A DNA stretch of 64,000 bases from Methylobacterium sp. (GTDB lineage: Bacteria; Pseudomonadota; Alphaproteobacteria; Rhizobiales; Beijerinckiaceae), in the NCBI GenBank assembly GCA_013823325.1, contig PNLY01000015.1:1-64000 (forward strand), given 5' to 3'. A program made the position numbers and the translations under genes. A model generated the notes under the pieces. That model saw only the letters and a program-made list of their open reading frames with translations, searched no databases and was not told where the DNA came from. Position 1 is the stretch's first letter, and every line of letters starts with the position of its first letter. This document shows, piece by piece, positions 51,180 through 52,874 of this stretch.

Positions 51180-51695
51180 GTGCTGATCGTGTTCAGCGGA
51201 CTGCCGGGTAGTGGCAAGACGACGCTTGCCCGCGAGCTCGCGGCAAGTCGGTCGGCGGCCTATCTGCGCATCGACAGCATCGAGCACGCGCTTCGCTCTA
51301 TATCGCCCGGCAGCGATATCGGGCCGGGTGGCTATGTCGTCGCTCTCGCGATCGCGGGGGGAAACCTTTCGCTCGGCATGGCCGTCGTGGCCGATTGCGT
51401 GAATCCGGTCGCCGAGAGCAGGGCGGCCTGGCGCGAGCTCGCTCGGGCTTCGGCCGTGCCGCATCTCGACATCGAAGTCGTCTGTTCCAACAAGGCGGAG
51501 CACCGGCGCAGGGTCGAGCAGCGACGATCCGATATCCCGGGATTTGTCGTCCCGGACTGGACTTCGGTGGAGACACATGATTATCAGCCCTGGACCGGCG
51601 ACCGGCTGATCGTCGACACGGCCGTCCTTTCGGTCGAGGACGCCCTGCGCCTGATCGAGGACCGATTGGCGTCCTTGGTGTACAGCGCCGATTGA
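51180..51695 (+). CDS. small P-loop kinase-like protein
   Basis: A 171-residue nucleoside-kinase-fold protein beginning with Walker A: LIVFSGLPGSGKTTLARELA. Further signs are LRIDSIEHALRS and VVADCVNPVAESRAAWRELA (lid region) and EHRRRVEQRRSDIPGF. It belongs to the AAA_33/zeta-toxin-like or gluconate-kinase-like group; the substrate is not predictable. It starts with GTG at 51180. Its stop codon lies inside the -35 hexamer of the promoter for the argC leader. Confidence 0.82.
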   Translation: MLIVFSGLPGSGKTTLARELAASRSAAYLRIDSIEHALRSISPGSDIGPGGYVVALAIAGGNLSLGMAVVADCVNPVAESRAAWRELARASAVPHLDIEVVCSNKAEHRRRVEQRRSDIPGFVVPDWTSVETHDYQPWTGDRLIVDTAVLSVEDALRLIEDRLASLVYSAD

Positions 51696-51720
51696 CAGGC
51701 AGCCGGGCAGGGAACATATA
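51692..51720 (+). promoter_or_regulatory. sigma70-type promoter of the argC leader
   Basis: TTGACA (51692-51697), exactly 17 bases, then CATATA (51715-51720). This is a full-consensus -35 with a near-consensus -10. Transcription would start near 51727-51728, the first base of the leader peptide ATG, predicting a leaderless message. Confidence 0.75.
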
Positions 51721-51727
51721 GCCCCGC

Positions 51728-51787
51728 ATGACCGTGAACCCGACCCGACGTCGCACCGAACAGGCCGCTCCGGCGCGCCCGCGATGA
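51728..51787 (+). CDS. candidate arginine-rich leader peptide upstream of argC
   Basis: A 19-residue frame, MTVNPTRRRTEQAAPARPR, with five arginines, three of them consecutive (CGA CGT CGC at 51746-51754). There is no RBS, but the predicted transcription start coincides with the ATG, as in the leaderless trpL of rhizobia. A terminator follows 28 bases after the stop. GGCGCG at 51772-51777 inside the frame can pair with CGCGCC at 51818-51823 in the terminator's left arm, giving an antiterminator. The stop TGA overlaps the ATG of a second arginine-rich frame. Interpreted as an attenuation leader; untested. Confidence 0.6.
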   Translation: MTVNPTRRRTEQAAPARPR

Positions 51788-51945
51788 CGCTCGGCTTCCA
51801 GCCCGAACGCCCGCGACCGCGCCCCGAGCGCGGTTTTTTTATGCCCGTCGCAAAACTGATGTCCGGTCTTGCGACAAGGCCAAGTTCCAGAGCCAGCCAA
51901 CCAGTTCCGCCCGCTTCCACCAGACGCCTTGCGAGGGTCCGATGA
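51784..51945 (+). CDS. possible second arginine-rich upstream frame coupled to argC
   Basis: A 53-residue frame starting in the ATGA of the leader stop and ending in an ATGA at the argC start. It has ten arginines, including AGG, AGA, AGA and AGG codons that are rare in GC-rich genomes of this type. It passes through the terminator hairpin and its T tract (coding FF). It could couple translation of argC to arginyl-tRNA supply, or be a fortuitous open frame. No protein family. Confidence 0.3.
   Translation: MTLGFQPERPRPRPERGFFMPVAKLMSGLATRPSSRASQPVPPASTRRLARVR
51816..51840 (+). terminator. intrinsic terminator (attenuator) in the argC leader
   Basis: Stem ACCGCGC / GCGCGGT, loop CCCGA, followed by a run of seven T that begins in the last stem base. 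It lies between the arginine-rich leader peptide and argC, about 100 bases before the argC ATG, which is the position of an attenuator rather than an ordinary gene-end terminator. Confidence 0.8.
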
Positions 51946-52874
51946 GCCAGAACCTGAAATCCATCTTCATCGACGGCGAAGCCGGCACGACTGGACTCGG
52001 AATCCGCGAGCGTCTCGCCGATGTGGCGGAAGTCGTGGTCAAGAGCATCGATCCCGACAAGCGCAAGGATCCTGCCGCCCGCAAGGCGATGATGGCGGGC
52101 GTCGACCTCGTCGTGCTCTGCCTGCCCGACGATGCGGCCAAGGAATCCGTCGCGCTCGCCGACGAGCTCGGCAACGACGCGCCCAAGATCGTCGACGCCT
52201 CGACCGCTCATCGCGTCGCGCCGGGCTGGACCTATGGCTTCGCCGAGCTGGAGCCGGGCTTCGCGCAGAAGGTCGCCAACGCCAACCGCGTCGCCAATCC
52301 CGGCTGCTATCCGACCGGCGGCATCGCACTGCTGCGCCCGCTCGTCGATGCCGGCTTGCTGCCGAGCGACTATCCCGTCACCGTCAACGCGGTCTCCGGC
52401 TATTCCGGCGGCGGCAAGAGCATGATCGAAGCCTATGAGGCCGGCACCGCGCCCGATTTCGAGCTCTACGGCCTCGGTCTCAAACACAAGCACCTGCCCG
52501 AACTGCAGGTCTATTCGCGGCTGGAGCGGCGGCCGATCTTCGTGCCGTCGGTCGGCAATTTCCGGCAGGGCATGCTGGTCTCGGTACCGCTGCATCTCGA
52601 CACGCTGCCCGGCAAGCCGAAGCCCGCCGATCTCGAAGCGGCGCTGGCCGAGCGCTATGCCGGCTCGACCTATGTCAGCGTCCTGCCGGCCGATGCGAGC
52701 GGCAAGCTTGAGCCTGAGGCGCTGAACGACACGAACAAGCTGGAATTGCGCGTCTTCGGCAACGCCGATCTCGGCCAGGCGGTACTCGTTGCCCGGCTCG
52801 ACAATCTCGGCAAGGGAGCCTCCGGTGCCGCCGTCCAGAACATCCGGCTGATGCTCGGCCTGCCGGAAGGCTGA
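51942..52874 (+). CDS. argC: N-acetyl-gamma-glutamyl-phosphate reductase (type 2 ArgC)
   Basis: A 310-residue enzyme of arginine biosynthesis. It reduces N-acetylglutamyl phosphate with NADPH in the cytoplasm. Seen: N-terminal IFIDGEAGTTGLGIRERLAD, LCLPDDAAKESVALA near residue 60, the catalytic Cys in NPGCYPTGGIALLRPLV near 120, SGYSGGGKSMIEAYE near 150 and FVPSVGNFRQGMLVSVPLHL near 200. The short length marks the type 2 form. It lies behind an arginine-rich leader and terminator, so arginine-dependent attenuation is proposed. RBS GAGGG is 6 bases before the ATG. In many relatives argC follows rpsI; here it does not. Confidence 0.97.
   Translation: MSQNLKSIFIDGEAGTTGLGIRERLADVAEVVVKSIDPDKRKDPAARKAMMAGVDLVVLCLPDDAAKESVALADELGNDAPKIVDASTAHRVAPGWTYGFAELEPGFAQKVANANRVANPGCYPTGGIALLRPLVDAGLLPSDYPVTVNAVSGYSGGGKSMIEAYEAGTAPDFELYGLGLKHKHLPELQVYSRLERRPIFVPSVGNFRQGMLVSVPLHLDTLPGKPKPADLEAALAERYAGSTYVSVLPADASGKLEPEALNDTNKLELRVFGNADLGQAVLVARLDNLGKGASGAAVQNIRLMLGLPEG

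Follow-up and report, generated by a model that had tools for sequence, protein, structure and literature searches.

Organization of the region upstream of argC

The window analyzed here, meaning the whole stretch of 64,000 nucleotides, encodes on its forward strand a type 2 ArgC (argC_other, TIGR01851; 407.9 bits, the cut-off being 229.85), whose nearest named relative is the Bosea protein with 96% identity; the window thus most likely derives from a Bosea. Further upstream lie an agmatinase gene and, after it, a kinase-like ORF, and the interval between this ORF and argC contains a compact array of elements. The relevant features, with coordinates in the window, are:

51180..51695, + strand: kinase-like ORF with Pfam domain AAA_33, outside the proposed switch; its stop overlaps the -35 box
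51692..51697, + strand: -35 box TTGACA, read from the sequence and kept in relatives
51715..51720, + strand: -10 box CATATA, read from the sequence, with a 17-nt spacer to the -35 box
51728..51787, + strand: leader ORF MTVNPTRRRTEQAAPARPR plus TGA (19 codons), read from the sequence, with similar ORFs in relatives
51745..51752, + strand: segment 1, from a predicted fold; pairs with 51786-51789 and 51791-51794
51746..51754, + strand: Arg control codons CGA-CGT-CGC, read from the sequence; tandem Arg in 45/48 representative leaders
51772..51794, + strand: segment 2, left side of the antiterminator in predicted folds (end of the ORF, stop and next bases)
51803..51823, + strand: segment 3, right side of the antiterminator in predicted folds, including the left terminator arm
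51816..51840, + strand: intrinsic terminator from a terminator scan, 7-bp stem and seven T
51942..52874, + strand: argC, type 2 (TIGR01851), the putative controlled gene

Direct reading confirms the arrangement given in the preliminary description, namely TTGACA-N17-CATATA, an ATG, a 19-codon Arg-rich frame, a stop, a hairpin with seven T and then argC. The ATG (51728-51730) is situated 7 nt 3' of the -10 box, and the encoded peptide, MTVNPTRRRTEQAAPARPR, has five arginines in its 19 codons before the stop TGA at 51785-51787. The terminator arms are ACCGCGC (51816-51822) and GCGCGGT (51828-51834), with the seven T at 51834-51840; the terminator scan recovers this 51816-51840 hairpin against an expectation of 0.4 from shuffled sequences. 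A consensus promoter scan, which accepts a second hexamer only if its sixth base is T, reported no promoter upstream of argC, and because of this the leader promoter call rests on conservation. Searches of 51200-52200 with the Rfam 15 covariance models (T-box, riboswitch and others) gave no match at E-values up to 1.

Two local peculiarities were also recorded. An inverted repeat (GTCGCAA/TTGCGAC, 51847-51875 in the window) lies between the terminator and argC, and is present in 7 of 34 loci inspected. The kinase-like ORF stands between the agmatinase gene and the leader in one of 21 named Bosea-type loci, as judged by tblastn, while agmatinase itself is present in 18 of the 21.

Conservation of the leader layout

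We used a layout finder which looks for a TTGACA-like box, the spacing, an ATG, an ORF 12-31 codons long in which two Arg codons lie close together, and a hairpin with a T run. It makes RR or RxR obligatory, allows 0-16 nt between the -10 box and the ATG, and prefers 7 nt among ATGs sharing a stop. The finder matches 125 of 170 loci, many of them retrieved by leader similarity; the fair set for it comprises the 80 named argC loci retrieved by ArgC similarity alone. In this set the full layout is found at 41 loci, or 42 when the Arg requirement is dropped, as against none of 2456 windows taken elsewhere in these loci, none of 170 reverse complements and one of 3400 dinucleotide shuffles. The leader layout upstream of argC is not due to chance. 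The remaining 39 named argC loci, including those of Rhodopseudomonas and Methylobacterium, have no leader by the finder; at two loci (L070 and L081) leaders are visible by eye though missed by it.

The unique leaders number 106, and these were reduced to 48 representatives at less than 85% identity. TTGACN is found upstream of all 106, with the qualification that the finder itself requires a near-match, and the promoter spacer is 17 nt in 41 of the 48 representatives. The ATG follows the -10 box by 6-8 nt in 44 of 48, a figure somewhat biased by the finder's preference for 7; a Shine-Dalgarno site would not fit into so short a distance. In 45 of 48 there are Arg codons in tandem (the finder requires RR or RxR). 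Arginine makes up 30.8% of codons in the leader frame, as opposed to 15.9% and 13.7% in the other two, and runs of at least three Arg are seen in 31 of 48 leader frames versus one and one in the other frames. Arg is the final sense codon in 42 of the 48 ORFs, and 42 use TGA as their stop. The representative peptides range from 14 to 22 residues: ORF length varies by whole codons among lineages, with the Arg run and stop staying in frame, and the N-terminal codons vary freely, in contrast to the well-preserved Arg run, stop region and terminator. Within the genus, nucleotide conservation of the leader is strong.

Phyletic distribution

A model, R1, was built from 31 leaders with only the terminator pairs included. 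It scores the leader in the window at 107.9 bits and nothing else in the genome above 20.8 bits; matches below about 33 bits are, by appearance, mostly ordinary terminators. Of the 61 genomes of the genus, 60 have an R1 match, and 59 have it directly upstream of a type 2 argC; the exceptions are G054, with argC and no R1 match, and G029, where the match is on another contig and no type 2 argC was found in the genome. At the family level, 46 of the 199 genomes contain a match with an E-value of 1e-5 or less; 43 of these matches, L177 and L180 among them, precede argC, the others being L188, L192 and L194. In the order, 151 of 397 genomes match at the looser limit of E up to 0.01, the low scorers being mostly plain terminators by their look. 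Among the best 29 order-level loci besides the window's own (L119-L147), a leader precedes type 2 argC in seven, type 1 argC in 11 (the downstream gene of L134, for instance, is type 1 argC, TIGR01850), argD in one (L126) and a RidA-family gene in one (L123), with nine being non-leaders. In the class, 5 of 385 genomes besides the window's match at E up to 1e-5: three matches precede argC, one an argD-like gene (L148), and one is a non-leader (L152). The check set by the preliminary description was whether the Arg run, the hairpin and the promoter are conserved; all three prove to be present in the genus and well beyond it, before both argC types and argD.

Several individual loci deserve comment. 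L181, L152 and L188 are family- or class-level matches above about 33 bits, yet are non-leaders or uncertain; the candidate at L188 has no recognized gene downstream. At L126 and L148 an Arg leader with its terminator adjoins the gene for argD or an argD-like acetylornithine transaminase. At L123 the leader MSPYAINRRRQFENPARARGR and a terminator precede the RidA-family gene, which is not an arginine gene. At L180 the leader upstream of argC is a remnant: its stop has been lost, and the frame continues into the terminator region. In L081 (Microvirga flocculans) and L177 a palindromic repeat is inserted in the terminator loop, splitting the arms; these two loci constitute a natural test of terminator loss.

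Competing RNA pairings

Pairing was assessed by an alignment-free swap test, which compares each RNA's own arms with arms exchanged across species and has a lowest attainable p of 0.0002. The terminator reaches this value (-15.18 kcal/mol own versus -14.34 exchanged), as does the wide pairing of segments 2 and 3 that forms the predicted antiterminator (-22.15 versus -20.02 kcal/mol), and pairing of the Arg run with the region after the stop gives p 0.0044 (-9.55 versus -8.74 kcal/mol); three negative controls give p 0.89, 0.61 and 0.55. In a stricter set of 19 leaders at less than 72% identity the corresponding p values are 0.0002, 0.0008 and 0.027, and the single negative control that was repeated gives 0.87. 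Counting of individual pairs shows the terminator to be 98.6% paired, with changes on both sides at three of its seven pairs.

The antiterminator originally put forward was the pairing of GGCGCG (51772-51777) with CGCGCC (51818-51823). Both hexamers are found in the sequence at these positions, and they form part of a longer, imperfect pairing which does covary (p 0.0002), but the 6-bp core between the ORF end and the left terminator arm shows no covariation by itself: its swap test gives p 0.20 (0.27 in the stricter set), it is 87.1% paired with none of six pairs changed on both sides, and its first pair is formed in 14 of 31 sequences. Relative to shuffles, the folds of segments 2 and 3 have a mean z of -1.59 over 48 leaders, with 19 of 48 below -2. 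The window's own 2:3 fold is no stronger than shuffles (z 0.13, or -1.29 with other segment ends), and one of its inner pairs is an A-C mismatch. The 2:3 energy lies below the terminator energy in all 48, partly due to the longer stretch being folded. Predicted folds and the swap test support an antiterminator that would exclude the terminator, with the stop codon lying inside segment 2. The hairpin between the Arg codons and the stop region, which was absent from the first reading, is supported as a further competitor by the fold and the swap test.

Control codons and regulation of other arginine genes

The longest Arg runs of the leaders are composed entirely of CGA (52), CGC (49) and CGT (33), that is 134 of 134 codons. 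The background was taken from the coding regions of argC at 16 of the loci, replacing the longest downstream ORFs of the 48 loci, which were possibly in wrong frames; CGG makes up 36.9% and CGA 0.9% of their 317 Arg codons. As the leaders are mutually related, no p-value is claimed for this bias. Among the 30 tRNA loci read, of the 42 in the genome, the tRNA-Arg anticodons are ACG, CCG, CCT and TCT, one each. Under the usual rules of decoding, CGA, CGC and CGT are all read by the ACG tRNA once A34 has been converted to inosine. Because the run uses these three codons and never CGG, AGA or AGG, it may report the charging of a single isoacceptor, tRNA-Arg(ACG), though a structural reason for the same codon choice is also possible.

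ArgR (PF01316) was detected in none of the 199 family genomes, including that of the window; among 14 control genomes, 8 have it. In the parts of the source consulted, ArgR is described as conserved in gammaproteobacterial groups and absent in other classes (PMC5343134). In close relatives, the usable loci of argG (0/20), argD (0/21) and argH (0/13) showed no leader, with an argG locus at a contig end (L215) and a partial argH (L250) left out of the counts; therefore, in the window's genome the attenuator would likely control argC alone. The region upstream of argD in the same genome (L218) has TTGACA-N17-CATAGT, then a hairpin formed by CGCCGCCC and GGGCGGCG and a run rich in T, with no Arg leader ORF, and is perhaps another kind of attenuator.

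Proposed mechanism and alternative explanations

The leader is very probably a leaderless, ribosome-mediated transcription attenuator upstream of argC that senses charged arginine tRNA. This interpretation, already advanced in the preliminary description, gains support from the recurrence of promoter, Arg run and hairpin upstream of two types of argC and of argD. Comparison across genomes shows the ORF with its Arg run, the spacing of the promoter, the terminator and the pairings that compete, while the start site, ribosome stalling, termination and arginine dependence are what we infer. Transcription would begin at or next to the AUG, as the 7-nt spacing suggests, and the first ribosome would translate the leader in the absence of a Shine-Dalgarno site. 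With ample arginine the ribosome would reach the UGA in segment 2, leaving segments 3 and 4 to form the terminator, and transcription would end ahead of argC, releasing a short transcript some 113 nt long. When arginine is scarce, the ribosome would stall at CGA-CGU-CGC and mask segment 1, so that segment 2 could pair with segment 3, block the terminator and allow transcription of argC. If there is no translation, segment 1 would pair with segment 2 and the terminator would form.

That the hairpin might simply terminate the upstream gene, with the short ORF being an accident of GC-rich DNA, is suggested by the overlap of the kinase-like ORF's stop with the -35 box and by the terminator lying 120 nt further on. 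However, that ORF is present in only the one Bosea-type locus whereas the leader is present in all 21, a promoter, ATG, Arg run and stop lie between gene and terminator also where diverged genomes have different neighboring genes, and the full layout is rare among shuffles (1/3400); we consider this reading very improbable. Direct sensing of arginine by the RNA, or sensing via a protein, with the ORF being incidental, would agree with the strong nucleotide conservation within the genus. We nevertheless regard it as very improbable, given the lack of any Rfam match (E-value limit 1), the change of ORF length by whole codons with Arg run and stop kept in frame, and the concentration of RRR in the leader frame (31/48 versus one and one).

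It is also conceivable that the leader RNA or peptide acts mainly in trans, in the manner of rnTrpL/peTrpL of Sinorhizobium, with control of argC being secondary. The leaderless layout and the RNA of about 113 nt that would be released do resemble the trans-acting rnTrpL, as far as the latter is described in the parts of the source consulted (PMC7298713). Against this, most recognized leaders precede argC, and the pattern of variable N-terminal codons beside a preserved Arg run, stop region and terminator points to control in cis; a mainly trans role is very unlikely, and attenuation of argC in cis remains the preferred reading.

Relationship to known leader systems

The comparisons in this section follow the consulted portions of the cited sources. 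The closest counterpart is trpL-trpE(G) of Sinorhizobium meliloti, a leaderless attenuator (PMC7298713, PMC10117765); classical attenuation and a leaderless trpL are both established (PMC7298713). Both systems combine a short ORF bearing a run of control codons with mutually exclusive hairpins, predicted ones in the case of argC, ahead of a biosynthetic gene. The S. meliloti trpL RNA begins at its AUG, and for the argC leaders such a start is predicted from the ATG lying 6-8 nt after the -10 box in those 44 of 48 representatives. They differ in that Trp codons and trpE are replaced here by Arg codons and argC or argD, and in that a trans function, shown for S. meliloti trpL (PMC7298713), would be a possible further role of the argC leader.

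The Salmonella speF leader orf34 likewise carries a pair of tandem Arg codons, with a further Arg codon adjoining the stop, and low-arginine stalling in it raises expression (PMC6386406). Unlike the argC leader, it has 34 codons, a Shine-Dalgarno site, Rho-dependent termination, RNase G involvement and occlusion of the RBS (PMC6386406), and speF is a polyamine gene (ornithine decarboxylase), while the gene downstream in the window, argC, belongs to arginine synthesis. In Pseudomonas aeruginosa a leader peptide precedes carA, which serves arginine and pyrimidine synthesis, but there pyrimidine control, possibly by attenuation, stands beside transcriptional arginine control, in another gene and class (PMC4997734). 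T-boxes of arginine genes respond to arginine tRNA charging, as the argC leader would, but they bind tRNA directly and have no leader peptide (PMC1262725), and the argC leader has no Rfam match. The preliminary description knew of no arginine attenuator for argC in this order; we found no arginine leader or attenuator before a bacterial argC or argD in the consulted parts of the open-licence literature. The mechanism is classical, and apparently the sensor (arginine) and target (argC) are undescribed, which would make this leader a new member or a new family.

Biological implications

A broader proposal is that leaderless Arg attenuators form a widespread family which replaced ArgR in a large part of Alphaproteobacteria, moved among two unrelated-looking argC types and argD, reads only the charging of tRNA-Arg(ACG), and may have an RNA or peptide acting in trans. 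We offer this tentatively, as a possibility that we consider rather doubtful as a whole. The use of codons for one isoacceptor would offer a natural test of the theory of selective charging, as set out in the consulted part of its source (PMC1183508). If the leader functions as proposed, arginine would join the amino acids sensed by classical attenuation. Given the absence of ArgR from classes other than the gammaproteobacteria, as one source states (PMC5343134), the leader is a direct and readily testable candidate for how arginine synthesis is adjusted in part of the Alphaproteobacteria.
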